Origin: a virus
Reading direction: 5' to 3' (one strand)
IMG/VR virus record: IMGVR_UViG_3300002460_000105
Location: 1 to 34,901 of that record
DNA length: 34,901 nt
A program made the position numbers and the translations under genes. The notes beneath the pieces are model-generated. The model was not told the DNA's origin and did no database searches. It saw nothing but the letters and a program-made list of their open reading frames with translations. Shown in pieces: positions 2,980-27,078 of this stretch. The stretch's first letter is position 1; each line of letters begins with the position of its first letter.

Positions 2980-2981
2980 TG

Positions 2982-3101: not shown

Positions 3102-3116
3102 GCCACAACCCTAAGT

Positions 3117-4031: not shown

Positions 4032-4043
4032 GTTCTATCTCCC

Positions 4044-4664: not shown

Positions 4665-4800
4665 CGCGCACTGCTCCGTTCCTTGACCTTTCCGCGATCC
4701 TCGCGAAGACGGTCGGGTGAAACGTCAACAGCACGTTGGCGTGAAATTTTCGGGCAGCGCACCCAAAGGGTTTTATGAACCCTAGTCGTCTGTAGGTAAT

Positions 4801-4830
4801 TCCATACTACATCTTGTTCCTGCTCGTCAA
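4801..4830 (-). promoter_or_regulatory. Candidate promoter for decoration/capsid genes, with leader hairpin
   Basis: On the minus strand TTGACG (4830-4825) and TATGGA (4806-4801) are separated by 18 bp, just downstream of the stop of the gene ending at 4838. The predicted transcript would begin near 4794 and soon pass a perfect 6-bp hairpin (AGGGTT, 5-nt loop, AACCCT; 4767-4783) before the decoration gene at 4664. This would let the abundant capsid products be made independently of the upstream genes. The -10 element is not consensus. Confidence 0.4.
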
Positions 4831-4837
4831 GCCCCCG

Positions 4838-6469: not shown

Positions 6470-6479
6470 GTTATGCCTC

Positions 6480-6893: not shown

Positions 6894-6897
6894 CTAC

Positions 6898-7083
6898 TTA
6901 TCCCTCGTTCATGTCCTTCTCGGTTTCATCGCACAGCACTAGAATACCTTCCAAGGCTTGGAGATACCCTACCAGTTCACGATACTTGGCGTAGTCGTCA
7001 GACTGGCCCCTTATCAAAAATTCCGTCTTGGATGCCTTCAACTCTTCGATCTTCTTGCGCAATCTGGCGTGAAACTGGTTCAC
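6898..7083 (-). CDS. Small helical phage protein
   Basis: The 61-residue protein starts MNQFHARLRKKIEELKA and is predicted to be almost entirely helical. It has two amphipathic segments (residues 4-20 and 28-56) separated by RGQSDDYAKYRELVGYL. It overlaps the stop of the upstream gene by 4 nt (7080-7083, ATGA) and lies 4 nt before the co-chaperonin gene, so it is translationally coupled. No family is assigned by eye. Small helical proteins at this position are frequent in podovirus-like head modules, but their role is unknown. Confidence 0.65.
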   Translation of the reverse strand: MNQFHARLRKKIEELKASKTEFLIRGQSDDYAKYRELVGYLQALEGILVLCDETEKDMNEG

Positions 7084-7622
7084 GACCGCGCTTTCTTCTG
7101 GAATTTGGAAAGCCCAAGCCGCCCAAGTCCGCTGTCCATCCCGCCTTTCAGATGGGGGTACTTATGAGCAGCGCCACCCCTAGCGCGCTTCAAAAATTTC
7201 TCCTGCTCGGATTCCGTCAGAATGGCCTTGTCAGGACCAGTCACCGCACCACCAGCTTTGCGCATCATTGGATTGATAGGTGGAGCGGGGGGAAGAAGAG
7301 GCACACCCCCCGCTCCTGCTACCCCCGGAACCGGGGCTGAGGGAGTTTGGGCAATTGGCTCCGAGGGCGGCATTAGAACTATTTTAACTTTGGTTTTAGC
7401 GCGCTTGGTCTTTCCGCCTCTTGCGTAATGATCTAAGCGACCACCTGATTTCTTGCCTTCAATCTTGGTTTCCTTGGCTTCCGCCTGTTTGAACATCTTG
7501 GCAAATAATTTACGATCCTCGGCTGCATCGCTATGCGGGCGGCCACCCTTGGCAAATCCAGTAAGAGATTTGATCTTGCCGCGCTCGGAAGCGCGGGATT
7601 CTTGTTTGTAGGGGTGCGCCAT
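7080..7622 (-). CDS. Basic Gly/Lys-rich phage protein with Pro-rich centre
   Basis: The 180-residue protein starts MAHPYKQESRASERGKIKSL. It contains KSGGRLDHYARGGKTKRAKTKV (residues about 58-79), almost the same block as in the 76-residue protein at 1800-2030. A Pro/Ala/Gly-rich linker follows (PSEPIAQTPSAPVPGVAG), then a second GG-containing basic stretch and a short C-terminal GLGRLGLSKFQKKARS. The charge and repeats suggest nucleic-acid or capsid-interior binding. It lies between portal-linked small genes and the co-chaperonin in the late operon. No established family is recognised. Confidence 0.65.
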   Translation of the reverse strand: MAHPYKQESRASERGKIKSLTGFAKGGRPHSDAAEDRKLFAKMFKQAEAKETKIEGKKSGGRLDHYARGGKTKRAKTKVKIVLMPPSEPIAQTPSAPVPGVAGAGGVPLLPPAPPINPMMRKAGGAVTGPDKAILTESEQEKFLKRARGGAAHKYPHLKGGMDSGLGRLGLSKFQKKARS

Positions 7623-7624
7623 AG

Positions 7625-7882
7625 CTATGCCTTCCCACCGTGTTTTCTTGGTACATCTTTTTCAGAAATATCTCTAATTCCTATTGATTTTCCACCGCCG
7701 ACACTAACAGAATGTGTTCCTATTTTCTTATATGACATCCCAACTGAATCTTTAATTCGATGTAATTCCGATTCTGGAGTTGATCCTATAGATTTAACAG
7801 TCCCGCCGTCAGCATAACCAGCCGTCATAGATTTCAACTTGGTTTTCTGACTGTCTTTGGCTTGCTTATGATTTGGGTGCAT
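7625..7882 (-). CDS. Small basic phage protein
   Basis: The 85-residue protein starts MHPNHKQAKDSQKTKLKSM. It is basic and Gly/Ser-rich, with YADGGTVKSIG and a C-terminal PRKHGGKA that recalls the GG-K motifs of its downstream neighbour. It overlaps the end of the portal gene by 17 nt and stops 3 nt before the next start, so it is part of the same coupled series. Local base composition is more AT-rich than its neighbours. Function is unknown. Confidence 0.6.
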   Translation of the reverse strand: MHPNHKQAKDSQKTKLKSMTAGYADGGTVKSIGSTPESELHRIKDSVGMSYKKIGTHSVSVGGGKSIGIRDISEKDVPRKHGGKA

Positions 7883-12511: not shown

Positions 12512-13021
12512 ATGACCCCGGCCTTAACATCTGCTCATCTTGTCCTGCACCAGCAAACACCGGACTATCGCTTGTTGGCAGAATGGCTAAGCGATCCTGA
12601 TACAATGAAATATTCAGAACAACGCCACCGCAAGCATACATTCGTTAGTTGCCGACAGTATGTCAGATCATTTGACCACGAATCCAGCCATATCTGGTCA
12701 ATCTACAACTTAGACAAGGAATTTGTCGGAACCATTACAGCATACTGCGACCCATTCAACAAAATTGCCGACATGGGGGTTCTCATCGGCAAACCGTACT
12801 GGCAAAGGGGATACGGCAGAGAAGCATGGAAAGCCGTCATGGATTGGCTGTTTGAAACAGATCAGAACACCCGCAAGATCGAGGCTGGCTGCATGGCAAT
12901 CAATATGGCGATGCAAAAAATCTTCGACAAGACCGGGATGAAGTTGGAAAGCGAGCGCAAAAATCACTTCCTTTGGAACAATCAGATGGTCGGTCTGCTG
13001 CAATACGCGAGGTTCAAATGA
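12512..13021 (+). CDS. GNAT acetyltransferase, RimJ/PseH-like
   Basis: The 169-residue protein has GNAT features: a beta strand with FVGTITAYCDPF (71-82), then ADMGVLIGKPYWQRGYGREAWKAV, in which QRGYG (98-102) is the acetyl-CoA pyrophosphate loop. A C-terminal IEAGCMAINMAMQKIFDKTGMKLE is the usual 'N-x-x-(S/M)-x-x-(I/L)-x-x-K-x-G' motif. In nonulosonate clusters a GNAT enzyme (PseH or LegH type) N-acetylates the aminosugar intermediate after the dehydratase and aminotransferase steps. That is the most likely job here given the downstream genes. Substrate is inferred from context only. Its stop overlaps the next start. Confidence 0.75.
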   Translation: MTPALTSAHLVLHQQTPDYRLLAEWLSDPDTMKYSEQRHRKHTFVSCRQYVRSFDHESSHIWSIYNLDKEFVGTITAYCDPFNKIADMGVLIGKPYWQRGYGREAWKAVMDWLFETDQNTRKIEAGCMAINMAMQKIFDKTGMKLESERKNHFLWNNQMVGLLQYARFK

Positions 13022-13797
13022 CCGCAGCCAAAGTCAAGGAATTCTGGGACCAACAAGCCGAAACATTCGGTACGTCTGATTTAGCAACCGCGCCAGATCA
13101 TCACTATCGAGAACTAGAGATCAGCCGGATCAAAGAAAATCTCATTGATGGTGAACTTGTATTAGATATTGGTTGCGGCAACGGGTACTCAATAAAAAGT
13201 TTTGCAAAAGCTTTTCCAAAAATAACATTCTGGGGCGTAGATTATTCTGAAAGTATGATTAAAGAAGCCATTAAACGAAAAACTAAGAATACAAGTTACT
13301 TAGTAAAAGATGTTCTCAAACTTTCATGTTTTTCAGAAGCCCCGTGGGTCTATCTTTTCGACACCATCATCTCCGAACGATGTCTAATCAACCTGGCCAA
13401 TTGGGATGAACAGAAACATACCATCTTGGAAATGAAGAAAATCCTGAAACCGAACGGCAGGATCATCCTAGTCGAGAATACATTTGAGGGCCTTCAGCGC
13501 CTGAACGACCTACGCGAGAAATTCGGACTTCATCGTATCGAAGTCCGTTGGCATAACAAGTATTTGCCAGAAGATGAATTGATAGATTTTCTTGAGCGCA
13601 ACTTTACCATTTTTAAGATGGAAAATATCGGATGTTTTTTTTATTTAGTTTCACGAGTTATATATGCTACGTTAGCAAAGGTTGAGGGGAAAGAACCAGA
13701 ATACTCCCATCCCATCAATGAAATAGCTTCCAAACTTCCGTCTCTAGGAGACTATCATTTCTCTCCTAACTGGCTATTTGTTTTGAGAAACAAATGA
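13018..13797 (+). CDS. Class I SAM-dependent methyltransferase
   Basis: The ATG at 13018 overlaps the GNAT stop (ATGA), so it is chosen over an extension inside the GNAT gene. The 259-residue protein shows motif I ELVLDIGCGNGYS (46-58), a motif II-like FWGVDYSESMI, and a post-motif LFDTIISERCLINLANWDEQ corresponding to motifs IV/V. The C-terminal half contains LKPNGRIILVEN. Small-molecule or sugar O/N-methylation is likely in this operon; DNA methylation is unlikely because no (D/N/S)PP(Y/F/W) is present. The stop overlaps the next start. Confidence 0.8.
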   Translation: MTAAKVKEFWDQQAETFGTSDLATAPDHHYRELEISRIKENLIDGELVLDIGCGNGYSIKSFAKAFPKITFWGVDYSESMIKEAIKRKTKNTSYLVKDVLKLSCFSEAPWVYLFDTIISERCLINLANWDEQKHTILEMKKILKPNGRIILVENTFEGLQRLNDLREKFGLHRIEVRWHNKYLPEDELIDFLERNFTIFKMENIGCFFYLVSRVIYATLAKVEGKEPEYSHPINEIASKLPSLGDYHFSPNWLFVLRNK

Positions 13798-14444
13798 GAA
13801 AACAATCGACAGCCTTCTATGGTGGAGAAGGAGATAAATGGTATCAGCGTAACCGTAACAAAGTGCCCTATCCTCTTGGGGATGATCCGGTCACAGGGGT
13901 TATCGCCAATCTCAATATCAAGCCCAAAAAAGTTCTTGAGATCGGATGCAGCAACGGGTGGAGACTGGAAAAAATCAGGAACCTATATTCCGGTTTCAAG
14001 CCGGAAGTTGTTTGTTATGGCGTCGATCCGTCATTAGCCGCAATCACCGAAGGACAAAAATCATTCCCCAAACTGATTTTGCTGCGCCGTGACGCCGCCA
14101 ACTTGCCTCATCGTCAATGGGGAGGTTTTGATATTATCATTCATGGCTTCTGTCTATATTTATGCGACCGCGAGGACCTATTCAAGATCGCCTATGAATC
14201 TGACCACTTCCTGAAAGACGGTGGCTATCTGATTATTCACGACTTCTTCCCCAAGACGCCGTGCTCTGTCGTTTACCACCACAAGCCTTCCTTGCGATCC
14301 TATAAAATGGATCACTCACAGCTATTTCTGGCTAACCCCACCTACAAAGAAGTAGCCCGCTATGTGCCGGAAGATAACGACGAGATAGGCATTGTAGTCC
14401 TCAAGAAAGACTTGGCTTCTGCTTTCCCGCTGGTGGAACAATGA
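13794..14444 (+). CDS. Class I SAM-dependent methyltransferase, second
   Basis: The 216-residue protein carries motif I KVLEIGCSNGWRL (46-58), an acidic strand end at YGVDPSLAAI, and GFDIIIHGFCLYLCDREDL in the motif IV region. GGYLIIHDFFPKTP follows in the motif VI position. The pattern HDFFP...Y.MDHS..F resembles sugar or polysaccharide-associated methyltransferases. It is coupled to its neighbours by 4-nt overlaps on both sides, which places its product in the same pathway. Methylation of a nonulosonic acid or of a linked glycan is an inference. Confidence 0.75.
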   Translation: MRKQSTAFYGGEGDKWYQRNRNKVPYPLGDDPVTGVIANLNIKPKKVLEIGCSNGWRLEKIRNLYSGFKPEVVCYGVDPSLAAITEGQKSFPKLILLRRDAANLPHRQWGGFDIIIHGFCLYLCDREDLFKIAYESDHFLKDGGYLIIHDFFPKTPCSVVYHHKPSLRSYKMDHSQLFLANPTYKEVARYVPEDNDEIGIVVLKKDLASAFPLVEQ

Positions 14445-15361
14445 AAACTATTGGCGTTCTAGGTCTTGGCAGCATCGGGCTACGCCACGCCAAAAACCTG
14501 ATTACGCTTGGTCATAAGGTCATTGGGTATGATCCTGACGGCGCTCGCGTCAGTATGCTCATTGATGCTGGCGGTCAAGGAATGGATCCCAACTACAAGG
14601 TTTGTGAAGCATCCGAAGCGGTAATTATCGCAACCCCAAGCCAGAATCACTTCACGGACATGCAGGAAACCATCACTTCCGGCAAGCACATCTTTGTTGA
14701 AAAGCCAATTGCTACGACCGACCCAAGAGCCTTGATTGAACTAGCCCACGATAAAAGACTTACCATTTTCGTAGGTAATAACTTGAGGTTTCATGTCTGC
14801 GTAAAACAAGCCAAACAAATGCTGGGCATGGGAGCTATCGGTAATCCTATCTGGGCTTCCATTACCGTAGGTCAATTTACGGACAAGCCGACGTATCTTC
14901 GCGACGGGGTAATTTTTAACTGGGGTGCCCATGAAATTGATCTTGCGCTGTACCTCTTGGGACCAGCAAAAGTAAAAAATGCCAGAGTATCTCCATGGTT
15001 GCCACACCCACATATTCCAAGACAAGAAGTTTTAGCCGACATAGCCCTTGAACATTCTGGGGGAATTTGTTCAACGGTTCATTTAGATTATGTAACTCGC
15101 CCAGAAATCCGCGCTACAACAATCGTAGGAGACAAAGGACAACTCATTATTGATTTGGTTAACAACTGGATTTGTCTAATTGATCTTGACGGTAAGAAAA
15201 CAGATATGACGTTGAATAATTCTTGGGATGCTAATTACTTGGAGGAAATAAAAGCATTCTTGGACCGTATAGACGGCAAGCAAACACTTGGCGCTTCAGG
15301 AGAAGATGGATTACGCGCATTAGAAATATGCCTTGAGGTACGAAAACTAGCGGGGTTATAA
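14441..15361 (+). CDS. Gfo/Idh/MocA-family oxidoreductase
   Basis: The 306-residue protein has the N-terminal Rossmann motif GVLGLGSIGLRH (5-16), VIIATPSQNH (61-70) and the hallmark FVEKPIA (85-91), with the catalytic lysine at about 88. NWGAHEIDLALYLLG (160-174) provides the His of the active site. The C-terminal half is the usual alpha/beta substrate domain (GLRALEICLEVRKL at the end). These enzymes use NAD(P) to oxidise or reduce sugar hydroxyls. Members occur in nonulosonate and aminosugar clusters, where they precede an aminotransferase. Length is slightly below the 330-350 typical of the family. Confidence 0.8.
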   Translation: MKTIGVLGLGSIGLRHAKNLITLGHKVIGYDPDGARVSMLIDAGGQGMDPNYKVCEASEAVIIATPSQNHFTDMQETITSGKHIFVEKPIATTDPRALIELAHDKRLTIFVGNNLRFHVCVKQAKQMLGMGAIGNPIWASITVGQFTDKPTYLRDGVIFNWGAHEIDLALYLLGPAKVKNARVSPWLPHPHIPRQEVLADIALEHSGGICSTVHLDYVTRPEIRATTIVGDKGQLIIDLVNNWICLIDLDGKKTDMTLNNSWDANYLEEIKAFLDRIDGKQTLGASGEDGLRALEICLEVRKLAGL

Positions 15362-15363
15362 AC

Positions 15364-15609
15364 ATGACCAGCATAGAAAAAGTAAAGAAATATCTATTTG
15401 ATGCTTGCGAGATTCTAGGAGAAGGATCACTTCCTACCCAACTACAAACAATCCTAGCCGCACATATGATTTGTCTAGTAGAACAACAATGCGAAACCGA
15501 TAGTCTTCAAAAGAGAATGACAGAAACCGCAGAAAATATGTATAAATCAACAGAAAGTAGGTTGAAAAAATTAGAAGAAAAAGACGACGACGAGCCGAAA
15601 GTTAATTAA
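15364..15609 (+). CDS. Small charged helical protein, unknown
   Basis: The 81-residue protein starts MTSIEKVKKYLFDACEILG and is helical, with a C-terminal acidic coiled-coil-like tail (SRLKKLEEKDDDEPKVN). It is AT-richer than the flanking enzyme genes and has no sugar-enzyme motif. It lies 2 nt after the oxidoreductase stop and ends immediately before the next ATG. Like the 64-residue gene at 18477, it appears to be a phage-type small gene interspersed in the biosynthetic operon. Confidence 0.6.
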   Translation: MTSIEKVKKYLFDACEILGEGSLPTQLQTILAAHMICLVEQQCETDSLQKRMTETAENMYKSTESRLKKLEEKDDDEPKVN

Positions 15610-17646
15610 ATGACTAAGACTGTTGCCGTCATCCAAGCTCGCATGGGAAGCACAAGACTCCCCGGCAAGGTGATGATGAAGCTTGGAACTGGGCCTATTC
15701 TGCATTGGGTATGGTCTGCCGCTAGAAATACACCGGAAGTGGATGAAGTTATCATCGCAACATCAACTCTACAAACCGATGATATAATCCACGACTATTG
15801 CGTAAAGAACAAGATACGGGTTTCCCGAGGATCGGAAAGCGACGTTCTGCTTCGTTTTATCGGCGCGGCAGAAGTTACCAATGCAGATATTATTTTACGT
15901 CTGACAGCCGACTGCCCATTTTTAGACCCAGCAGTTATCGGACAAGTCATTCACTTGCGGGCCATGACCAATGCCGATTATGCCACTAACACCAATCCTC
16001 CGACATGGCCGGATGGGTTGGATGTGGAATGCTTCACCAGAAAAGCATTACTAGCGGCCCACAAGGAAGCAACGCGCCAGACCGACAGGGACTGCGTAAC
16101 TCGTTTCATCGTCCGTAATCGTCATAGGTTCCCGGCCGAGAACTTGGTCTGTCCACTTCCCGGTATGGTCAACGAGCGGTGGGTTCTCGATACGGAAGAC
16201 GATCTGAAATTCTGCCAGGCCGTAGCAGAACGGCTCTCATGGGATTGGTCGCCGTCCTATATGGATATCCTACGGGTTCTTGAAAAAGAACCTGAACTCA
16301 GAGAACTCAATTCCCATCACATCCGCAATGAGAGATTCTACGAGGCGATGGCGGACGAGCCAACCATCGAGCGTTCCTATTCCATATCACAGAAGCTATT
16401 CGAGCGCGCCAGCAAGATCATTCCGTTCGGAGCGCAGACATTCAGCAAGAGCCATCTACAGTTCCCGTCTGAGTCATCACCGCTGTTTCTAACTCATGGA
16501 GACGGGGCCTATGCTTTTGATGTTGATGGAAACGACTATGTTGATCTTGTTGGCGCTCTCCTTCCTAATGTTCTTGGCTACCGCGACCCCGATGTGGATG
16601 CTGCTATTCGTCGCCAGCTTGATAGCGGTATCAGTTTTAGTCTCGCGACAGAGATGGAATCACAATTAGCTGAACGACTAATCGAGCATATCCCGTGCGC
16701 GGAAATGGTGAAGTTCGGGAAGAACGGCAGCGATGTAACTGCGGCGGCTGTCAGGCTCGCGCGTGCCGTTACCGGCAGGAAAGACATCATGCTCAACGGC
16801 TATCATGGCTGGCATGATTTCTCGATTGGAGCGAGCGAAAAAAGCCTTGGAGTGCCGTCCGATACGTTCCTGCTCTCCCATAGGTTTTCCACAGCCTCGG
16901 AAGCGGAAGACCTGCTTAGACACCATAGCATTGCTGCGGTAATTATTGAACCAGATCAATATAATGGTGATTTGAGAGAATTACAGGATTTGGTGCGACA
17001 ATTTGACACAGTATTTATTTTTGATGAAATAATCACAGGTTTTCGCTGGTCCCTTGGGGGGTTCCAAAAATACTGCGGCGTGACACCTGATCTCGCCTGT
17101 TTCGGCAAGGCAATGGGCAACGGGATGCCAATCTCCGCACTTGTGGGGCGCGCTGATCTGATGAAGCGAATGCAGCCGCCGAACAACATCTTCTATTCAG
17201 GAACATTCTTTGGCGAGACGCTCTCCATCGCTGCGGCCATAGCCACCATCGACAAGATAGAGCGCGAGAATGTCATCGGCCATCTACGGCGACAGGGAAC
17301 CAACCTTTGTGCAAAAGCGACAGAACTGATCCATCATTACGGATTGGCGAGAACTATCAGACTTAGCGGCACCCCACCATTGGTCAGAATCGAGTTCTTC
17401 GATCACCACGGAGCCACCAAGGAACAGATCAAGACATTGTTCATCCGAGAAATGATTGCTGCCGGTGTGCTTATCATAGCAAGCAACAATCTTTCGTTCG
17501 CTCACAAAGAACCTGAAATACGCCGCGTGCTGAAAGCATACGATCATGCTTTAGGTGTTATCATAGACACAATTGAGCGCGGTGACATCGCACGACAACT
17601 TGGAGATAACGTAATCCCATTAAAAACATCGGTGCGACATGCCTGA
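15610..17646 (+). CDS. Fused nucleotide-sugar cytidylyltransferase and class III aminotransferase
   Basis: The 678-residue protein joins two enzymes. Residues 1-245 are an SpsF/CMP-sugar-synthetase-type cytidylyltransferase, with VIQARMGSTRLPGK (7-20), TADCPFLDP (99-107) and WVLDTEDDL (191-199). Residues about 258-665 are a class III, glutamate-1-semialdehyde-aminomutase-like aminotransferase. It shows GDGAYAFDVDGNDYVDL, FGKNGSDVTAAAVRLAR, GYHGWHD, FDEIITGFR (471-479) and the PLP lysine in CFGKAMGNGMP (Lys500). The first half would activate a 3-deoxy-ulosonic acid as the CMP form; the second would move an amino group on a sugar or ulosonate. The two domains may act at different pathway steps. 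Confidence 0.85.
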   Translation: MTKTVAVIQARMGSTRLPGKVMMKLGTGPILHWVWSAARNTPEVDEVIIATSTLQTDDIIHDYCVKNKIRVSRGSESDVLLRFIGAAEVTNADIILRLTADCPFLDPAVIGQVIHLRAMTNADYATNTNPPTWPDGLDVECFTRKALLAAHKEATRQTDRDCVTRFIVRNRHRFPAENLVCPLPGMVNERWVLDTEDDLKFCQAVAERLSWDWSPSYMDILRVLEKEPELRELNSHHIRNERFYEAMADEPTIERSYSISQKLFERASKIIPFGAQTFSKSHLQFPSESSPLFLTHGDGAYAFDVDGNDYVDLVGALLPNVLGYRDPDVDAAIRRQLDSGISFSLATEMESQLAERLIEHIPCAEMVKFGKNGSDVTAAAVRLARAVTGRKDIMLNGYHGWHDFSIGASEKSLGVPSDTFLLSHRFSTASEAEDLLRHHSIAAVIIEPDQYNGDLRELQDLVRQFDTVFIFDEIITGFRWSLGGFQKYCGVTPDLACFGKAMGNGMPISALVGRADLMKRMQPPNNIFYSGTFFGETLSIAAAIATIDKIERENVIGHLRRQGTNLCAKATELIHHYGLARTIRLSGTPPLVRIEFFDHHGATKEQIKTLFIREMIAAGVLIIASNNLSFAHKEPEIRRVLKAYDHALGVIIDTIERGDIARQLGDNVIPLKTSVRHA

Positions 17647-18484
17647 AAGTATTTTAATCACTGGGGCAACAGGTACATTCGGTAAAACGTTTGTAAGGCG
17701 TCTGCTTAAAATAGGAAAAACAAAACGGATTGTCGTGTTCTCGCGCGGGGAAATCAGACAAGCCGACATGAGAATGGAACTGGGGGAGGATAGTCGGCTT
17801 CGATATTTCATTGGTGATGTAAGGGACAGGGATCGTTTGAGACGCGCCATGAATGGCGTTCAAGTCGTCGTCCACGCCGCCGCTCTGAAGCGGATTGAAG
17901 TAGGTCACTACAATCCGGTGGAGATGGTAAAGACAAACATCGGCGGGGCAATCAATGTCATCGAAGCCGCACAAGATACTGCCGTTGAGAAAGTCATCGC
18001 CCTTTCCAGCGATAAGGCTGTTGAGCCTATTAGTCCTTACGGCACCAGCAAGGCATTGGCTGAAAATCTATTCCTTGCATCAAACAATACCGTTGGCGGT
18101 CGTACTAAGTTTTCAATCGGGCGGTGGGGAAACATTTGGAAATCAAATGGGTCGGTTGTTCCAGTATGGCAAAAGATGAAACGAGACGGGCTTAATACGG
18201 TTCCTATAACTGATCCAGATTGTACGAGATTCTTTATGAGGATTGAAGAAGCCGTTGAACTCGTCCTCAACACTATCTCCATCATGAACGGCGGGGAAGT
18301 TGTTATTCCTGACCTGCCAGCCTACCGCCTTGGTGATCTCGCGGAAGCAATGGAAGTCAAGACTGACATTCGCGGCCTCCCAGTCTGGGAAAAGAAACAC
18401 GAGAGTATGAGAATTGGATTGAGCAGCGATAAGGTTCGCAGAATGTCAATCCAAGAGCTTCAGGAGGCGCTCCTACATGACTAA
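17639..18484 (+). CDS. PseB/FlaA1-like NAD-dependent nucleotide-sugar 4,6-dehydratase
   Basis: The 281-residue short-chain dehydrogenase has ILITGATGTFGK (5-16) for NAD, VVHAAALKRIEVGHYNPVEMVKTNIGGAINVIEAA (77-111) and ALSSDKAVEPISPYGTSKALAE (121-142), with Tyr134 and Lys138 as the Y-x-x-x-K pair. The AALK...YNP...KTNI...SSDKA signature is that of PseB/FlaA1-type UDP-GlcNAc 4,6-dehydratases (inverting or retaining). These make the 4-keto-6-deoxy sugar that starts pseudaminic- or legionaminic-type pathways. It is shorter than PseB (about 330 aa). It overlaps both neighbours by 8 nt. Confidence 0.85.
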   Translation: MPESILITGATGTFGKTFVRRLLKIGKTKRIVVFSRGEIRQADMRMELGEDSRLRYFIGDVRDRDRLRRAMNGVQVVVHAAALKRIEVGHYNPVEMVKTNIGGAINVIEAAQDTAVEKVIALSSDKAVEPISPYGTSKALAENLFLASNNTVGGRTKFSIGRWGNIWKSNGSVVPVWQKMKRDGLNTVPITDPDCTRFFMRIEEAVELVLNTISIMNGGEVVIPDLPAYRLGDLAEAMEVKTDIRGLPVWEKKHESMRIGLSSDKVRRMSIQELQEALLHD

Positions 18485-18671
18485 AATCTATGACGATATA
18501 ATCAACGAGATAGAAAACCTTCGCCGTATCAACAATTCAAACTGGATGGGTTTGTTACGCCTAGCATTGGAATCATCGCCAGAAAAAGCAAAAAGAATAC
18601 TTAAAGATATTAACTACCGTGATGAAAGAATTTCAGAATTAATGACCAAGCTCGGAGAAACCAGTGAGTAA
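18477..18671 (+). CDS. 64-residue helical protein, unknown
   Basis: The small protein starts MTKIYDDIINEIENLRRINN, is helical and AT-rich, and has no enzyme motif. It overlaps the dehydratase stop by 8 nt and its own stop overlaps the next gene (GTG at 18664) by 8 nt. Placement inside the biosynthetic series, like the 81-residue gene at 15364, suggests phage-style interleaving; function is unknown. Confidence 0.55.
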   Translation: MTKIYDDIINEIENLRRINNSNWMGLLRLALESSPEKAKRILKDINYRDERISELMTKLGETSE

Positions 18672-19827
18672 GTTGGTTCTATTCGGCGGCAAGCCAGAAG
18701 TAGATGGACCTATTGCTAGGTTCAATACGATTGGACAGGAAGAAAAGAATGCTGTTTTAGTAGCCATGGATAATGATCCGTTATCTGGCTTTCTAGGCGG
18801 CAAAGAACATGGCGGATTATGGGTTAGACGACTGGAAGAAAAATGGGCCGAGACTTTCAAAGTCAAACACGCCATCTCTATGAACTCGGCTACGAGCGGA
18901 TTGCTGGCAGTGGCGGCAACAATAGACAACCCTTTTAATAGATCATTTCTAGTATCTCCATATACAATGTCTGCAACAGTAGCTGCCCCGATGTTTTGTG
19001 GAACGACGCCAGTATTTTCAGATATTGAACCAGATACGTTCAATCTCGATCTGCAAAAGGTGTGGCCGTGGGGAGCTATTGCCGAACTTGAAAACGTGAA
19101 AGCAATTGTCGTGACCAACCTGTTTGGCCACGCGGCGGAACTAAGAAATATAAGAGAGTCCGCGGACAGATACGAACTCCTGATGATCGAGGACAACGCG
19201 CAATCCCCTTTCGCAATGGAAGATGGCAAATATGCTGGCACATTTGGTCATATCGGAGTTTTCTCCACAAATGTTCACAAGCACCTACAGAGCGGAGAAG
19301 GCGGCATCTGCGTAACTGACGATGACGATCTAGCTCACAATATGCGGATGTTTCGTAACCACGGGGAGATGTCAGGTGGCATGATCGGTCTCAACCTTCG
19401 CATGACTGAAATTACCGCAGCCATAGCACTAGCTCAGTTACAGAGAGCAGATGAAATCATAAGCGACAGGATAAAAATTGCCGAGAGATTGACTGAGGCT
19501 GTGAAAGATTTGCCTGGAATTACACCACCTGTTGTGCGAGAAGGTTGCCGCCATGTTTACTATTGTTGGGCTGCGAAATTAGATAACGGTATCGACCGTG
19601 ACTTGTTCGTAAAGGCCATGAACGCAGAGGGTGTGCCTCTCCGCGCTGGCTACATGAAACCGCTCTATACGCTCCCGGAGTTTTCTGCTTATGCTAGGTC
19701 ATGTCCTGTGGTTGAAGATGTTGAGAAGCGGTTAGTGCTATATGAGAACTGTTCATGGTCCCCGACCAGCGAGCAAGTGAAACAGATAGGAAATGCGTTT
19801 GAAAAAGTTATAGGGGAAATATTGTGA
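18664..19827 (+). CDS. DegT/DnrJ/EryC1-type PLP aminotransferase (PseC-like)
   Basis: The 387-residue protein begins at the GTG at 18664. It shows HAISMNSATSGLLAVA (69-84) for the cofactor phosphate, VVTNLFGHAAEL (149-160), LMIEDNAQSP (173-182, Asp177 to the pyridine N) and the PLP-lysine region FSTNVHKHLQSGEGG (200-214, Lys206). This family aminates 4-keto-6-deoxy nucleotide sugars, the step after a PseB-type dehydratase. Length and motif spacing are normal. It is followed by an inserted HNH gene whose GTG start overlaps its stop (GTGA). Confidence 0.85.
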   Translation: MSKLVLFGGKPEVDGPIARFNTIGQEEKNAVLVAMDNDPLSGFLGGKEHGGLWVRRLEEKWAETFKVKHAISMNSATSGLLAVAATIDNPFNRSFLVSPYTMSATVAAPMFCGTTPVFSDIEPDTFNLDLQKVWPWGAIAELENVKAIVVTNLFGHAAELRNIRESADRYELLMIEDNAQSPFAMEDGKYAGTFGHIGVFSTNVHKHLQSGEGGICVTDDDDLAHNMRMFRNHGEMSGGMIGLNLRMTEITAAIALAQLQRADEIISDRIKIAERLTEAVKDLPGITPPVVREGCRHVYYCWAAKLDNGIDRDLFVKAMNAEGVPLRAGYMKPLYTLPEFSAYARSCPVVEDVEKRLVLYENCSWSPTSEQVKQIGNAFEKVIGEIL

Positions 19828-20348
19828 AAATAAACGGACACAAAGAAAGAAGAAAAGTTCCTTCAACAGAATTAACATGGAGCCGACTCTTAGAAGTAAT
19901 AAATTATAACCCTAAGACAGGAGTTTTTATTTGGAAGAAGTATCACTCTGGAATAAGAATTGGCAAAGAAGCTGGAGCATTATTAAACAATAAATACAGA
20001 AGAATTTCTATTGATGGATTTTCCTATTTATCTCATAGACTCGCTTGGATGTATGTTCATAAAGAATTTCCTAAATGCGATATTGACCACATTAATGGAA
20101 ACGGACTTGATAATCGTATAGTTAATTTACGTCTGGCGACACGGAGCCAGAATCTTATACACTCCGAAAGATGGGGTCCGTCAAGAGGAATTTATTTTAA
20201 TAAGAATAAAAAGAAATGGCACGCCAGAATTCATGTTAATGGACGAGTAATTTCTTTAGGGTATCATCGTCTCAAAAAGAATGCACTTATTTCTTACCAA
20301 GAATCAGCTACAATTTATCACGGTAAATTCAATAGTCTCACAACATGA
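19824..20348 (+). CDS. HNH homing-type endonuclease with AP2-like DNA-binding domain
   Basis: The 174-residue protein has an N-terminal segment LTWSRLLEVINYNPKTGVF (17-35), an HNH core with SHRLAWMYVH and DIDHINGNGLDNRIVNLRLAT (86-106), and a C-terminal AP2-like domain (about 118-170: GIYFNKNKKKWHARI...LGYHRLKKNALISYQES). Such genes are free-standing homing endonucleases that cut unoccupied sites and spread by repair. It is clearly AT-richer than its neighbours and sits between an aminotransferase and a NeuB-type gene, both stop/start junctions being 4-nt overlaps (GTGA, ATGA). It was apparently inserted without breaking the operon. Confidence 0.85.
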   Translation: MKINGHKERRKVPSTELTWSRLLEVINYNPKTGVFIWKKYHSGIRIGKEAGALLNNKYRRISIDGFSYLSHRLAWMYVHKEFPKCDIDHINGNGLDNRIVNLRLATRSQNLIHSERWGPSRGIYFNKNKKKWHARIHVNGRVISLGYHRLKKNALISYQESATIYHGKFNSLTT

Positions 20349-21358
20349 ATATAGCTGGACAAGAAATAAGCTCAAAATATCCTCCGTTCATTATAGCGGA
20401 AGCATCGGCAAATCATTTGGGTAATTTAGAAAAGGCATTCAAACTTATCATTGCGGCAAAATGGGCCGGGGCTTCTGCTATAAAATTTCAGGCATACGAA
20501 ACCGACACGATCACCATAGACCATGATGGGCCAGGATTTGTTTTAGAGGACGGGCCGTGGAAAGGAAAGAAACTCTATGATCTTTATCGAGAAGCACAAA
20601 CACCTTTTGCGTGGTTTCCAAAGCTATTCGAGCAGGCTGAAAAGGCTGGCATTACTGCTTTTGCTTCGGTGTTTGATAAGTCTAGCGTTGATCTGCTTGA
20701 GGGCCTCGAATGCCCTGCATACAAAATCGCGTCGTTTGAGATCACGGATTTACCCCTTATTGAGTACGCCGCGAAAACCGGGAAGCCACTGATTATCTCA
20801 ACCGGGATGGCGAGTAACGAAGAAATTGAGGATGCTTATGAGACTGGAAGAAATCCAGTTCTATTGCACTGTATTTCTGGCTACCCGGCATTGCCGGAAG
20901 AAACTAATCTTGAAAACTTAGTTTGGCTTCGAGATAGGTATGGTCCGATTGTAGGTCTCTCCGACCACACCCTCGGCATAGAAATCCCCATAGCAGCTAC
21001 GGCTTTGGGTGCTTGTATCATCGAGAAGCATTTGACCTTGGCACGCTCTGACGACGGACCGGACGCTAACTTCTCACTTGAGCCAAACGAGTTCAAGGCT
21101 ATGGTGGAGGCTACTAGAATGGTTTGGGCCGCTCTACAGCCTTCTAATGCACCGTCAGAAAACCCCCAAAGACAAGCGAGGCGGTCGCTTTATGTAGTGC
21201 AGGATATCAAAACGGGAGAAGTTCTAACTAGCGAAAATGTGCGCTCGATCAGACCGGCCTATGGATTACCGCCCAAGATGCTGCCAGAAGTATTGGGGAA
21301 GAAAGCCAAGATTGATCTTTCCAGAGGCACGCCGCTATCAATAGAGATCGTCGAATGA
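20345..21358 (+). CDS. NeuB/PseI-family nonulosonic acid synthase
   Basis: The 337-residue protein condenses phosphoenolpyruvate with an N-acetylated hexose to make a nine-carbon ulosonic acid. Seen are FIIAEASANHLG (15-26), SAIKFQAYETD (45-54), IISTGMAS (150-157), LLHCISGYPALPEE (173-186), VGLSDHTLG (203-211) and IEKHLTLARSDDGPDANFSLEP (226-247). The last stretch is more like pseudaminic-acid synthases than neuraminate synthases. Residues 280-337 form the SAF/antifreeze-like domain (RSLYVVQDIKTGEVLTSENVRSIRP). It begins inside the HNH stop codon (ATGA) and ends inside the next start, so it is part of the same operon. Confidence 0.85.
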   Translation: MNIAGQEISSKYPPFIIAEASANHLGNLEKAFKLIIAAKWAGASAIKFQAYETDTITIDHDGPGFVLEDGPWKGKKLYDLYREAQTPFAWFPKLFEQAEKAGITAFASVFDKSSVDLLEGLECPAYKIASFEITDLPLIEYAAKTGKPLIISTGMASNEEIEDAYETGRNPVLLHCISGYPALPEETNLENLVWLRDRYGPIVGLSDHTLGIEIPIAATALGACIIEKHLTLARSDDGPDANFSLEPNEFKAMVEATRMVWAALQPSNAPSENPQRQARRSLYVVQDIKTGEVLTSENVRSIRPAYGLPPKMLPEVLGKKAKIDLSRGTPLSIEIVE

Positions 21359-21949: not shown

Positions 21950-22062
21950 TCAATCGGCCTTGGGCTTGCCCTTAGGCTCCCGCTTGGGCGCACGCCCGGT
22001 TTGGAGAGCGGCTCGCATGGCGTCTTCGAACCCGAGGGGGTGGAGTCGCAATGGTATCTTGT
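21950..22062 (-). pseudogene. 3' half of a small gene interrupted by the IS1595-type element
   Basis: The minus-strand frame reads DKIPLRLHPLGFEDAMRAAL and continues into a Lys/Pro-rich tail ending KGKPKAD and TGA at 21950. It begins in the left copy of the 8-bp target duplication and continues in frame with the 5' half at 26387-26455. Joining the halves with one duplication copy gives a 57-residue basic protein. The type (basic N-terminus, L-x-P-L-x-F-E-D-A-x-R-A-A-L core, Lys/Pro-rich tail) is of unknown function. The gene is inactivated by the insertion. Confidence 0.8.
22055..22062 (+). repeat. Left 8-bp target site duplication (TATCTTGT)
   Basis: TATCTTGT lies directly left of the element and again at 26387-26394 directly right of it. 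Eight base pairs is the duplication length known for IS1595-family elements. The exact copy, and restoration of an open frame when one copy is kept, fix the insertion point. Confidence 0.85.
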
Positions 22063-22087
22063 CCCGATTATATGGTTGACAAAGCAG
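22063..22087 (+). repeat. Left terminal inverted repeat
   Basis: The repeat begins CCCGATTATATGG and ends TTGACAAAGCAG. It matches the reverse complement of 26362-26386 at all but positions 3, 5 and 6. The -35 element of the transposase promoter (TTGACA) lies inside it. Confidence 0.85.
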
Positions 22088-22104
22088 ATTTGAGGCCCTA
22101 TAAT
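22076..22104 (+). promoter_or_regulatory. Perfect-consensus sigma70 promoter of the transposase
   Basis: TTGACA (22076-22081), 17 bp, TATAAT (22099-22104): both hexamers and the spacing are exact consensus. The -35 lies in the terminal inverted repeat. Predicted start of transcription is near 22111, about 25 nt before the transposase ATG at 22136. Such a strong promoter on a transposase normally needs a repressor; see the operator-like repeat overlapping the -10. Confidence 0.85.
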
Positions 22105-22125
22105 CCGGCATAAACTGGATTATAG
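22098..22125 (+). promoter_or_regulatory. Operator-like inverted repeat over the -10 of the transposase promoter
   Basis: CTATAATCC (22098-22106), a 10-bp spacer, and GGATTATAG (22117-22125) are perfect 9-bp inverted repeats covering the -10 and the start of transcription. A protein bound here would block polymerase, or the RNA hairpin could affect translation. The candidate regulator is not identified; the transposase itself is one possibility. Confidence 0.6.
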
Positions 22126-22135
22126 GACTTCAACC

Positions 22136-23077
22136 ATGAACCTCACCGACCCACGTTTTCAGGACGCCGAAAAGGCCCGCAAATGGCTAGAGGCACAGCG
22201 TTGGCCAACTGGCCCAGTTTGCCCGCATTGCGGCAACGTCGATCCTGAAAAGATCACTGCACTTAAGGGCAAGGTGCACCGCCCCGGCCTGTATCAGTGT
22301 GCCGAATGTCGTGAACAATTCACGGTGACAGTCGGCACGGTCATGGAGCGCAGCAAGATTCCGCTGAACAAGTGGGTTGCCGCCATGCACCTGATGGGCG
22401 CCAGCAAGAAAGGTATGTCGGCACACCAGCTACACCGCATGCTCGGGATCACCTATCAGTCCGCGTGGTTTCTCGCACATAGAATTCGTGAGGCCATGCG
22501 CGATGACTATGCAAGCCCGATTGGGGGCGGCAGCAAGATCGTCGAAGCCGATGAAACCTATTTCGGCAAAGCCGAGACGCCGCGCGTCTCTCCGCAGCGC
22601 AAGGGCCGCCCCTTCACCAAGAAGGGCCACGCTTGGAATAATCGTCCTATCCTCGCCCTTGTAGAACGCGGCGGAAGCGTTCGCACGTTCCATGTCCCGG
22701 TAGCCGACAAAGCCAACGTGCAGGCCATCGTCGCCGCGAACATCGCACGCGAGAGCCGCCTACATACCGACGAAAGCAAACTCTATTTCGGCGCGGATAA
22801 AATGTTCGCTGCGCATGAAACCGTCAAACACAGCGCCGGCGAGTATGTCCGCGACGACATTCACACCAATTCAGCAGAAGGCTATTTCAGTATCTTCAAA
22901 CGCGGTATGCGCGGCGTCTATCAGCACTGCAAAGAAAAGCATCTGCACCGCTATCTAGCGGAGTTTGATTTTCGATATAACAACCGTATCGCACTTGGCG
23001 TCGGAGATTTTGAGCGCGCCAGCAAGATCGCGAAGGGTGCAGAAGGCAAGCGCCTCACCTATCGACGGCCTCATTAA
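22136..23077 (+). CDS. IS1595-family (ISXO2-like) transposase
   Basis: The 313-residue protein has an N-terminal zinc-binding part (CPHCG at 34-38 and CAEC near 55), then a catalytic domain. This shows KIVEADETYFGK (first Asp), LHTDESKLY (second Asp) and HTNSAEGYFSIFKRGMRGVYQHCKEKHLHRYLAEFDFRYNNR, the characteristic closing block of this family with the Glu/Asn region. Length matches intact family members and no frameshift is visible. It moves the 4.3-kb element by recognising the 25-bp ends. It is transcribed from a consensus promoter that partly lies in the left end. Confidence 0.9.
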   Translation: MNLTDPRFQDAEKARKWLEAQRWPTGPVCPHCGNVDPEKITALKGKVHRPGLYQCAECREQFTVTVGTVMERSKIPLNKWVAAMHLMGASKKGMSAHQLHRMLGITYQSAWFLAHRIREAMRDDYASPIGGGSKIVEADETYFGKAETPRVSPQRKGRPFTKKGHAWNNRPILALVERGGSVRTFHVPVADKANVQAIVAANIARESRLHTDESKLYFGADKMFAAHETVKHSAGEYVRDDIHTNSAEGYFSIFKRGMRGVYQHCKEKHLHRYLAEFDFRYNNRIALGVGDFERASKIAKGAEGKRLTYRRPH

Positions 23078-23140
23078 GCCGGTTTACAAATTTCAGGCTG
23101 CGCGTTTTATCCGCTGGCGAAAGCGCAAGTGATAAGCAGC

Positions 23141-23269
23141 ATGCGGTTCACTTTATCCGTTGGAGAAAACGCTATAGCCGCTAGAATATCCAGGCGATCT
23201 TGTGGATTCGATGATATTGTTGATCTGCTGGAAGCTTGGGAATCGGCACCGGGGGAAATAAATGCCTAG
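23141..23269 (+). CDS. 42-residue frame overlapping the methyltransferase start
   Basis: A frame from the ATG at 23141 to TAG at 23267-23269 overlaps the methyltransferase start (23262) by 8 nt, the arrangement of a coupled leader or small partner. The peptide starts MRFTLSVGENAIAARISRRS and ends FDDIVDLLEAWESAPGEINA. It has a helical C-terminal half and no recognised motif. It could be a small control protein for the downstream enzyme, a leader, or a remnant. No strong ribosome-binding site is visible. Confidence 0.4.
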   Translation: MRFTLSVGENAIAARISRRSCGFDDIVDLLEAWESAPGEINA

Positions 23270-24758
23270 AAAATCAGCCTTGATCGATACGAGCATAATC
23301 TACTGCGGCGATTGCTTAGACCAGCTTCGCAAGCTTCCTGATGCTTCAATCGATCTGATCTATATTGACCCGCCGTTCAATTCCAATCGGGACTATGAGG
23401 TGTTTTGGGGCGAGACGAAAGAGAAGCGAGCCTTTGAGGACAGACACGCATCGACGCAAGCCTACATCGACTTTATGCGTCCGCGCTGCGTTGAACTGGC
23501 GCGCGTTCTCAAGCCAACCGGATCGTTCTATTATCACTGCGATTGGCACGCCAGCCACTATATAAAAATCATGCTAGACCAGATATTCGGAGACAATCAA
23601 TTTCAGAATGAGATTATTTGGAAGCGGACAAATGCCCATGCCGACACACACGGCTTCGGCCACATACACGATATTATTTTCCGATATTCAAATGGCAAAA
23701 CACCAGCGTTCAACGTCGAACTGAAATCTTACCCGCAAGAATACCTAGACCGCTATTTTATCTATGAAGATGAGCATGTCGCCGCACGCGGCAAACATTG
23801 GCGTGCAGACATAACTGGCTCCGGTTTGAGAAATGGTGAAACCGGCAAAGTATGGAAGGGCATTAATCCTGCCAATATTGGGAAAGGGCGTCACTGGATG
23901 CGCGCTCCAGCCGAGCTTGACGCGCTCTTGGCAGACGGTCGAATTTATATCCCGCCAGATGGCGGTATTCCTAAGCTGAAACGCTATGTAAACGAACTTG
24001 AAGGCGTGCCAGTCGATTCAATCTGGGATGACATTCCGTCGCTTGGTGGTCTATCAAAATCGGCGAAAGAATCGCTAGGGTATCCGACGCAAAAACCATT
24101 GGGGCTGCTGGAGCGGATTATTGAGGCCAGCAGCAACAAGAACGATATTGTTCTTGATGCCTTCTGCGGATGCGGGACAGCCCTCGTTGCAGCCCAAACA
24201 CTCAAGCGCCAGTGGATCGGCATCGATATTTCGCCAACCGCCTGTCGTGTCATGGCGAAGCGGTTACGTACCGATTGCGGTATGAGTGAGAACGAGGAGC
24301 TGTGGCGAGCCGGACAGGGCTTTATCGTTCGCGATCTACCCCGAACGGAAACAGAGTTGCGTAAAATCCCGCCATTTGAATTTGAGAATTGGGCTGTGAT
24401 CGCAATTGGCGGGATACCGAACAAGGCGAAAGTAGGAGACATGGGAATTGATGGCCGCATATTTCCGGTTTCGGCGATGCCCGAGAAGCGCCCAGGGAAG
24501 CAACACGACCTAGAATTTATGGATATTTGGTATCCGATTCAGGTCAAGCAGCAGGATAAAGTCGGGCGCCCAGACATTGATAAATTTGAGGCAGCGATGA
24601 TGCGTGAGGATCGGACTAAAGGATTTTTCGTATCGTTCGATTATTCGTCGGATGCCATGACAGAAATTAGCCGTTTTTTTAAACAAACGGGCAAGGTCAT
24701 CATACCTTTTACAGTTGCCGAAATTCTGGATGAGCAAATCGCCCAAAAACTAGCTTAG
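23262..24758 (+). CDS. DNA methyltransferase fused to a PD-(D/E)XK-like (Mrr-type) domain
   Basis: The 498-residue protein has a beta-class-ordered methyltransferase: catalytic IDPPFNSN (35-42) first, target-recognition region about 140-260, then PTQKPLGLLERII (275-287) and the SAM-binding LDAFCGCGTALVAA (298-311). After this, residues about 372-490 form another domain with FENWAVIAIGG, GDMGIDGRIF (392-401, Asp397) and YPIQVKQ (424-430, Gln427/Lys429). That is the D...(E/Q)xK pattern of Mrr-type nucleases. One protein may thus modify and cut DNA. It is cargo of the element, following the transposase by about 180 bp. Confidence 0.8.
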   Translation: MPRKSALIDTSIIYCGDCLDQLRKLPDASIDLIYIDPPFNSNRDYEVFWGETKEKRAFEDRHASTQAYIDFMRPRCVELARVLKPTGSFYYHCDWHASHYIKIMLDQIFGDNQFQNEIIWKRTNAHADTHGFGHIHDIIFRYSNGKTPAFNVELKSYPQEYLDRYFIYEDEHVAARGKHWRADITGSGLRNGETGKVWKGINPANIGKGRHWMRAPAELDALLADGRIYIPPDGGIPKLKRYVNELEGVPVDSIWDDIPSLGGLSKSAKESLGYPTQKPLGLLERIIEASSNKNDIVLDAFCGCGTALVAAQTLKRQWIGIDISPTACRVMAKRLRTDCGMSENEELWRAGQGFIVRDLPRTETELRKIPPFEFENWAVIAIGGIPNKAKVGDMGIDGRIFPVSAMPEKRPGKQHDLEFMDIWYPIQVKQQDKVGRPDIDKFEAAMMREDRTKGFFVSFDYSSDAMTEISRFFKQTGKVIIPFTVAEILDEQIAQKLA

Positions 24759-24804
24759 GCGAAGGTCCTATCAGCCTGCCACAATCAAAGGAGTCCACTA
24801 CCGC

Positions 24805-24960
24805 CTAGCTGGTGATGGGCTTCATTGCCTGTGAACGGCTCGGCCGGCGCCGTAGCATCTTGCGCCGTTTCGACTTGGGTTCACGCGGCTGCGGTGGCGT
24901 TGCCAGCAATCGCCTAGCGATTCGCTCTAATTGCATTTCGTTTTGATCTTTTCTGGCCAT
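24805..24960 (-). CDS. Small basic protein ending the cargo operon
   Basis: The chosen start is the ATG at 24960-24958, one base after the stop of the upstream gene (24962), so it is coupled to it. A longer frame to 25020 lies inside that gene. The 51-residue product starts MARKDQNEMQLERIARRLLA and has a strongly basic tail (KSKRRKMLRRRPSRSQ). The pattern E-R-I-A-R-R-L-L-x-T-P-P-x-P is seen in small proteins of unknown function next to mobile genes. It may bind nucleic acid. Confidence 0.6.
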   Translation of the reverse strand: MARKDQNEMQLERIARRLLATPPQPREPKSKRRKMLRRRPSRSQAMKPITS

Positions 24961-24961
24961 G

Positions 24962-25750
24962 TCAGTGTATTGTTGCTTCTGCTCCAAGAACCTCGCGCTC
25001 GATGCGTTTAATAGCAGCATCTTTATCGCCCTCCCAGCTTGTCACGGCTGCGAGGCGATTGCGAGCGAGCCTGTGCATATGTTGCGGCAAGGTTCCTTCT
25101 GTTTCCAAGAGAGCAACCACGGAAAGCTGCTCCTTAGCTTCATATAGCGCGGCCATTTGCAGAATAATAGCCTCGTGAACGCGCGTCGTGGATTGACTGA
25201 GAAAGATCGCGACCGGCACGCGGTTTGGCGCAGACAATACCATATCCGGCGTCAACTCTGTCAGCTTTGAACTAACCGGCATATTTTCTGTGATGACCGC
25301 ACGACTTCCGACAGCTTGTTTGATGCTCTTAGCTGCATCCTCCTTGAAAGTGCTTTCAACATGTTCCTGCGTCAAAAGTAAAAAATCGAAAAGCCTGAGC
25401 AGCAATGCGACGAAATGGAGAGCGGCACGGGGTAGGTCGTTCTCTTTCATATTCGATGTTTTAATTATGTTTTCGTTTTCATCATATTCTACGCCATACT
25501 CATTGAGTAGCGCGTCAAATGCTTTTCTGCGTGTTTGGGTCTGAAAATCTACACCGCACGCTTCCAAATATGGAATCGTCTGCCCGTCGTCTTCGAGATG
25601 GGCTATACCGGATAGCGTGGCATTACGGACAACATAGAAGGCGATTGCATCGCCGTCGCTACGGCGGAACGACGTACTCACGGCCAGCCCAATAGGAACC
25701 TCTTTTACGGAAATCTCGTTACAAAATGCCCTGCAAAGCTCTTCCTTCAT
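24962..25750 (-). CDS. DUF1828-domain protein
   Basis: The 262-residue protein starts MKEELCRAFCNEISVKEVPIG. Its first 110 residues match the DUF1828 pattern, with SDGDAIAFYVVR, LEDDGQTIPYLEACGVDF and RKAFDALLNEYGVEYDENENII. The C-terminal half (about 150-255) contains NRVPVAIFLSQSTTRVHEAI and an Ala/Leu/Glu-rich helix. DUF1828 proteins have no proven biochemical function but are often found in phage and mobile regions, frequently with a partner. It overlaps the preceding gene by 4 nt (25747-25750) and is coupled to the next. A defence or toxin-antitoxin role is conjecture. Confidence 0.75.
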   Translation of the reverse strand: MKEELCRAFCNEISVKEVPIGLAVSTSFRRSDGDAIAFYVVRNATLSGIAHLEDDGQTIPYLEACGVDFQTQTRRKAFDALLNEYGVEYDENENIIKTSNMKENDLPRAALHFVALLLRLFDFLLLTQEHVESTFKEDAAKSIKQAVGSRAVITENMPVSSKLTELTPDMVLSAPNRVPVAIFLSQSTTRVHEAIILQMAALYEAKEQLSVVALLETEGTLPQHMHRLARNRLAAVTSWEGDKDAAIKRIEREVLGAEATIH

Positions 25751-26235
25751 AGCAGGGACCCCTTCGGCTCAATCTTGTAACGATCAACCGCGAAACGAAT
25801 CGCGGCCGTCTCGTTGCCTATCTTAAATTTATGGAACTTTTTGTCCCTATGTGGTTTTCGCGCGCCAGGGACGCGCTTGATCCAAGGTCCACGCATGAAC
25901 CCATGAGAGAGCGTGCCCGAATCGTCATGCGTCGCGTGGCAATGCCAGCCGGGTTCTGAAGCGTGATACTCATACGAGCAAAGAATCTTCAAAGTTCCGT
26001 TCTGCCCCATGACACCAAGGACAGCTTCGTATTTTTGCTTGGCTTCGTGCTGCACGACAAGCACCCGACAATCAGCGCCGAGCGCCTGAAACTCGACAAC
26101 GCACCACTTGAATGAGTTTCCTAGCCGATAGGCCGCACGCGCAATCGGGAAGTCCGCCTTGGGGACCTTCCCCGAATGCCACTGCCCGATTTTGATGTTG
26201 TCTTTGGGCGCGCGAATGATTTCCTTGAGGCGCAC
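25747..26235 (-). CDS. Uncharacterised partner of the DUF1828 protein
   Basis: The 162-residue protein starts MRLKEIIRAPKDNIKIGQWH and contains alternating strand-like segments (KWCVVEFQALGADCRVLVVQHEA and KILCSYEYHASEPGWHCHATHDD). A His/Cys-containing middle and a basic C-terminal part (RKPHRDKKFHKFKIGNE) follow. No known domain is recognised. The stop overlaps the DUF1828 start (ATGA). It is the first gene of the minus-strand cargo operon, reading inward from the right end, whose inverted repeat contains a TTGACA that could serve as a -35 with only a weak -10. Confidence 0.65.
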   Translation of the reverse strand: MRLKEIIRAPKDNIKIGQWHSGKVPKADFPIARAAYRLGNSFKWCVVEFQALGADCRVLVVQHEAKQKYEAVLGVMGQNGTLKILCSYEYHASEPGWHCHATHDDSGTLSHGFMRGPWIKRVPGARKPHRDKKFHKFKIGNETAAIRFAVDRYKIEPKGSLL

Positions 26236-26361
26236 TGTTGATCCCTTCCCTCAACCCCTGAGGGAAAGTACCAGCGCCTAAATCCCCTGTCGATCTTCGG
26301 TCGCCGCAGCCGCAGCTAAGATCAACGCCGGCCTGTCTTTCCTGCTCTAGTTGGCTGCTGC

Positions 26362-26386
26362 CTGCTTTGTCAACCATATATACAGG
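26362..26386 (-). repeat. Right terminal inverted repeat
   Basis: Reads on the minus strand as CCTGTATATATGG followed by TTGACAAAGCAG, matching the left end in 22 of 25 positions. It is immediately followed by the right 8-bp duplication. Confidence 0.85.
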
Positions 26387-26394
26387 TATCTTGT
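26387..26394 (+). repeat. Right 8-bp target site duplication (TATCTTGT)
   Basis: Exact copy of 22055-22062, next to the right terminal inverted repeat. Confidence 0.85.
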
Positions 26395-26895: not shown

Positions 26896-26968
26896 GCGCA
26901 CGTAGCTCAGTGGATAGAGCGCTTGGTTGCTACCCCGGAGGTCGGAGGTTCGAATCCTTCCGTGCGCA
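26896..26968 (+). tRNA. tRNA-like gene, anticodon position reads GCT (identity uncertain)
   Basis: The 73-nt sequence folds as a cloverleaf. Acceptor GCGCACG/CGTGCGC is perfect; the D arm is GCTC...GAGC and the T arm GGAGG-TTCGAAT-CCTTC. A 17-nt anticodon arm CTTGG-TTGCTAC-CCCGG has one mismatch and one G-U. Position 34-36 is GCT (Ser), but the variable loop is only 5 nt, unlike serine tRNAs; the body resembles arginine tRNAs. CCA is not encoded. It is either a phage tRNA with altered specificity or a decayed copy. Confidence 0.6.
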
Positions 26969-27078
26969 CTACCCTTCCCGGCTGCACAAGGTCACGGCCC
27001 GGTGCAGTTGGCAGCCGGAGAGTCCGGCAATGTACCGTGCGTACCCCGAGGCGGCGCCCGTGAAGCGCCGTCTCACCT
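26969..27078. other. Structured spacer between the two tRNA-like genes
   Basis: No coding frame is convincing. The 110-bp spacer contains CCGGCTG...CAGCCGG inverted repeats and a GGCGGCGC-CCGTGAA-GCGCCGTC hairpin just before the second tRNA. It may be a processing signal or a decayed third tRNA; no cloverleaf could be drawn. Confidence 0.3.

Follow-up and report, generated by a model that had tools for sequence, protein, structure and literature searches.

The DNA analyzed here, called the window throughout, is a linear virus record of 34.9 kb, and its positions 22063-26386, read directly from the sequence, are a complete 4.3-kb transposon lodged in a phage contig. The account that we consider probable is that this is an IS1595 'transporter', which moves a compact single-chain restriction-modification enzyme along with a second predicted defense module and has inserted into a phage genome. 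The anatomy of the transposon, the sequence-based identity of its cargo, and the recurrence of the enzyme family in both IS1595- and IS1-type elements can be taken as established. The observation made in a preliminary description of this DNA is confirmed, and the interpretation attached to it is partly supported.

Anatomy of the element and its phage setting

The element is bounded by 25-bp terminal inverted repeats with a perfect core of 19 bp, and a perfect 8-bp target duplication is present on both sides (Table 1); the 22 matching positions of the repeats and the duplication had both been reported previously and are borne out here. The same duplication length is seen in five other enzyme-bearing elements considered below as well as in other IS1595-type elements, and the left repeat resembles the termini of related elements, with which it shares a core of the form TATAT...TTGAC. 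A joint score for inverted repeats and duplication, taken around the methyltransferase, was at least 14 in the window and in five other loci, as against a best score of 12 in about 285 shuffled upstream/downstream pairings. Inverted-repeat matches without a duplication were left out of the element calls because controls score similarly.

Table 1. Features of the element and of its fusion enzyme; positions are those of the window unless given as residues
Feature	Position	Strand	Basis or remark
Target site duplication, left copy, TATCTTGT	22055..22062	.	direct reading
Left terminal inverted repeat, CCCGATTATATGGTTGACAAAGCAG	22063..22087	+	22/25 against right end
IS1595-family transposase, 313 aa	22136..23077	+	zinc ribbon and DDE domain; Pfam, NCBIfam
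Methyltransferase-nuclease fusion, 498 aa	23262..24758	+	domain, motif and fold comparisons
Fusion: beta-class N6-adenine methyltransferase motifs			D36PPF, F301CGCG
Fusion: target-recognition region	residues about 126-250
Fusion: Mrr-type nuclease	residues about 371-498		G392D-x-G-x-D397, Q427VK
Short basic ORF, 71 codons (51 from internal ATG)	24805..25020	-	after DUF1828 gene
DUF1828 protein, 262 aa, PADLOC candidate PDC-M24B	24962..25750	-	Pfam, PADLOC, family alignment
162-aa protein, GTG start	25747..26235	-	occupies PDC-M24A position; GWHxH motif
Right terminal inverted repeat, reverse complement, CCTGTATATATGGTTGACAAAGCAG	26362..26386	-	22/25 against left end
Target site duplication, right copy, TATCTTGT	26387..26394	.	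direct reading

The transposase retains intact catalytic motifs (EADETYFG, HTDES and HTNSAEGYF) and matches Zn_ribbon_IS1595 (5e-12) and DDE_Tnp_IS1595 (6e-33) in Pfam as well as NF033547 in NCBIfam (2e-60; 204 bits against a cut-off of 75). A passage in PMC12561309 gives target duplications of 7-9 bp for the IS1016 subgroup and cites Siguier et al. 2009 for IS1595-family insertion sequences with passenger genes. Because the defining features of the family that were tested, namely an N-terminal zinc ribbon, an IS1595 DDE domain, terminal inverted repeats and an 8-bp duplication, are all found here, the designation of this DNA as a passenger-carrying IS1595 element is, on sequence grounds, a claim of membership, in line with its initial reading as a complete element of this type.

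To the left of the element lie genes for a terminase, a portal and a major head protein, and to the right that for a DnaD-like replication protein; both flanks are therefore phage. Similar portals are found in phages of 50-65 kb, among them Pelagibacter HTVC023P/HTVC027P, Roseobacter CRP-901 and Caulobacter RW. The nearest phages, viral contigs L103 and L106, are largely collinear with the window from the head genes to a pseudaminic-acid gene ending at 21358, with protein identities of 34-78% up to that point and no match to the tested right-hand genes. The region 12512-21358, which is largely collinear in these two contigs, encodes aminotransferases and a pseudaminic acid synthase (PseI, 9e-128), and represents a nonulosonic-acid-like pathway in a phage. 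A single tRNA-Ser with the anticodon GCT is located at 26896-26969, about 500 bases to the right of the element.

No empty site was found in the viral contigs, among which even the nearest relatives are too distant to reveal one, and the exact 19-bp end is absent from every other viral contig searched, so that the proposed movement of the element among phages is not borne out. Removal of the element and one duplication does yield, as had been noted, an in-frame ORF of 57 codons from its ATG. When the local sequence is shuffled, an ORF of that length spans the junction in 51% of cases; such ORFs cover about 90% of phage positions, and no homologue of the 57-aa product was found, in related phages or otherwise. 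As about half of the shuffles give an equal length, the restored frame is not evidence of a gene, and the interruption of a small phage gene by the element is a weak claim.

The fusion enzyme and the DUF1828 operon

The earlier identification of a methyltransferase-nuclease fusion as cargo is upheld by domain matches, including Mrr_cat, which was matched by all 37 nuclease domains scanned. The methyltransferase motifs DPPF and FCGCG are complete and conserved in the homologues, a corresponding fold match was found, and the DPPF motif presumably points to adenine methylation. Conservation of the catalytic motifs across 96 homologues is 97% or more in the methyltransferase and nuclease domains alike, the nuclease motif GDxGxDG...QVK being near-invariant, whereas the recognition region has a median identity to P0002 of 29%, as against 71-82% for the catalytic regions. 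Near-invariant catalytic motifs combined with a hypervariable recognition region make up the pattern of a working, target-changing restriction-modification enzyme, and the motifs and this pattern of selection together support the prediction that the fusion is such an enzyme. The nuclease fold is weakly supported by structure comparison: the whole-chain model has good methyltransferase matches and a poor nuclease half; when the nuclease domain was modeled separately, confidence was low, and FokI and EcoT38I, the only nuclease-like structures that it matched, fell short of significance.

Divergent from the fusion gene is the DUF1828 operon, which had been described as comprising three genes. The DUF1828 protein itself is confirmed (Pfam, 5e-18; PADLOC PDC-M24B, 2.5e-18), and the gene for the 162-aa protein, overlapping its start by 4 bases, completes a pair of plausible genes; the third member is the short basic ORF, which has no family match and may not be a gene. 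The 162-aa protein is comparable to M24A partners in its position, its similar length and the GWHxH motif common to both, with the similarity not being significant either as a match to PDC-M24A or in a profile comparison with the M24A-like family, and it has no demonstrable relatives. As plasmid or viral queries, neither it nor the DUF1828 protein gave matches. Because PADLOC candidates are present, we infer that the DUF1828 pair may constitute an additional anti-phage module, as in other elements, the PDC families being candidate rather than proven defenses. A DUF1828 gene and a small partner directly before a modification gene are also observed in two Acidobacteriota loci (L189, assigned by sequence, and L193), the latter combining a recognizable M24A partner with a type III Mod beside the DUF1828 gene.

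Recurrence of the enzyme in small transposons

At each of the 96 loci encoding the fusion enzyme (15 viral, 80 bacterial and the window), the DNA flanking the enzyme gene was examined for inverted repeats accompanied by a matching duplication of 8 bp. Six of these loci lie inside elements with terminal inverted repeats and a perfect 8-bp duplication, the sequence of which differs among all six. Three elements, those of the window, L058 (5.4 kb) and L068 (3.9 kb), encode IS1595 transposases, while two, L023 (3.5 kb) and L026 (6.3 kb), encode IS1-like transposases. The remaining one, L006 (2.5 kb), is located in another phage contig, lacks a transposase and is possibly mobilized in trans; it spans positions 2548-5052 of its contig with the duplication CCGAGACA and lies beside capsid and terminase-like genes.

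Four of the six elements encode a further PADLOC candidate: PDC-M24B in the window, PDC-M24A+PDC-M24B and RmrA/RmrT in L026, a RelA/SpoT-type PDC-S33 protein in L058 and a PDC-S13 protein in L006, with the partner genes of L023 and L068 giving no matches. The exact cargo order, which might have been expected elsewhere from the preliminary description, never recurs among the loci found. The recurring feature is the fusion enzyme, whose partner module varies from element to element, and DUF1828 proteins occur in two elements (the window and L026) that have different transposase families, ends and hosts. It is because of these other elements that the idea of a mobile restriction or defense cassette gains support.

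The possibility that the fusion enzyme is always transposon cargo was rejected, with 90 of the 96 loci lacking detectable ends; the enzyme is therefore mostly found outside recognizable transposons. Two of these loci, L003 and L061, have IS1-like transposases nearby with no ends found, and the other 88 show neither ends nor an adjacent IS1595 or IS1-like transposase. Inverted repeats around the enzyme gene in L033 and L089 were also rejected as element ends, as they are REP-like dispersed palindromes, arrays of which flank the fusion gene (L033, 5626-7634; L089, 5572-8483).

In the enzyme tree, which mixes bacterial phyla, the three IS1595-borne versions are on separate, well-supported branches. 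The relatives of the enzyme that were found belong mostly to bacterial genomes, and its occurrence is patchy: of the genomes sampled, 2 among 396 from Acidobacteriota and 3 among 392 from Planctomycetota encode it (about 0.5-0.8%), one of them in three copies. The separate branches, the mixed phyla and the patchy occurrence would fit horizontal spread and repeated capture of the enzyme. The two IS1-like-borne versions (L023 and L026) group together and may reflect a single capture.

Other IS1595 elements of the window type are 2.5-5.4 kb in size with passengers aboard, and relatives of 2.5-3.8 kb are found on plasmids of Mesorhizobium, Bradyrhizobium, Methylobacterium and Roseomonas; L097, L180, L182, L183, L195 and L196 carry passengers without the fusion enzyme. 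The L097 element (5948-9741; duplication ACATTTTT) encodes a different, MT-A70-like adenine methyltransferase, and methyltransferases may be a favored cargo of such elements. Those of L182 (693-4105) and L195 (4930-7533), in Methylobacterium and Roseomonas plasmids, have a common cargo layout consisting of a hypothetical gene, a PIN/VapC-type gene and a small gene.

Mechanistic interpretation and relationship to known systems

According to the account that we prefer, the transposase would act on the 25-bp ends and generate the 8-bp duplication, the methyltransferase would modify adenine within a target that the variable central region specifies, and the fused Mrr nuclease would cut DNA without that methyl mark. 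Restriction of incoming DNA by the cassette may thereby be of advantage to its carrier, and the predicted cost of losing the cassette would favor its retention, with the DUF1828 pair probably adding a second anti-phage module. A purely selfish version appears to us somewhat unlikely. In it, the host would retain the transposon because the restriction-modification gene addicts it, and the copy in the phage would have arrived by chance during a single infection and confer nothing on the phage. Addiction is a known property of type II restriction-modification genes, and the insertion is in a small, apparently dispensable region, but the repeated addition of different defense-candidate genes would be left unexplained; this version is otherwise compatible with a transported defense cassette, and sequence cannot separate the two. 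Alternatively, the cargo could serve the phage, with the methyltransferase shielding phage DNA from restriction by the host and with competing phages or host DNA being the targets of the nuclease and the DUF1828 module (superinfection exclusion). Such a role might be suggested by the position of the element between the genes of a phage related to virulent podoviruses, and by the element in the phage contig L006; we nevertheless hold it to be unlikely, given the predominance of bacterial relatives and the confinement of the transposon end to a single viral contig among those searched.

The nature of the enzyme and of the contig itself could also be construed differently. DNA methylation can regulate the transposition of IS4/IS5 elements (PMC9296519), and the weak structure model of the nuclease would be in keeping with a methyltransferase that is not a restriction enzyme at all, its dead or regulatory nuclease-like domain affecting transposition or gene expression. 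This we find improbable, as the near-invariance of GDxGxDG and QVK alongside the hypervariable recognition region fits selection for restriction. For a metagenomic contig whose empty site was not found in relatives, one might suspect that bacterial transposon DNA was joined to phage DNA during assembly, but the perfect duplication, the phage genes on both sides and the close GC contents of the element (52.2%) and its right flank (52.3%) render such a chimera very improbable.

Restriction and defense genes cluster and travel on plasmids, integrative elements and prophages. The elements described here suggest that they seem to travel on small transposons too, even into phage genomes: small elements bounded by inverted repeats, with transposases of two groups, carry the same fusion enzyme with varying predicted defense modules in phages and bacteria. 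In the open literature searched (a scope with ISfinder and subscription papers outside it), neither the combination of the fusion with DUF1828 cargo nor its recurrence is described. Such transposons offer a testable route for the exchange of defense genes between hosts and phages, and the fusion enzyme provides a marker for finding new defense modules beside it. More tentatively, and with reservations, one might envisage IS1595/IS1-superfamily elements as general mobile defense islands, in which a conserved single-chain restriction-modification core with swappable anti-phage modules was captured several times independently and rides phages, carrying weapons between competing phages and bacteria.

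Among known systems, the single-chain type II restriction-modification enzymes (IIC/IIG) likewise combine a methyltransferase, a PD-(D/E)XK-type nuclease and a variable recognition region in one chain. Whereas classical IIG enzymes have the nuclease first, the fusion, whose activity is predicted, has a beta-class methyltransferase first and a C-terminal Mrr-type nuclease. M.BceJIV, M.MboIIA, M.RsrI, CcrM and EcoP15I Mod share its beta-class N6-adenine methyltransferase fold and are not known to carry a C-terminal Mrr nuclease. The DUF1828 pair parallels PDC-M24 (DUF6978-type A and DUF1828 B) in having an overlapping small gene before the DUF1828 gene next to a modification gene, a layout also seen in L026 and in Acidobacteriota beside type III Mod, but differs in that the small partner in the window does not match PDC-M24A significantly. 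Finally, the element has its transposase family, terminal inverted repeats, 8-bp duplication and possession of passenger genes in common with known IS1595 insertion sequences with passengers, and is distinguished from them, as far as the open literature searched shows, by its cargo of a methyltransferase-nuclease fusion with a DUF1828 operon and by its location in a phage.
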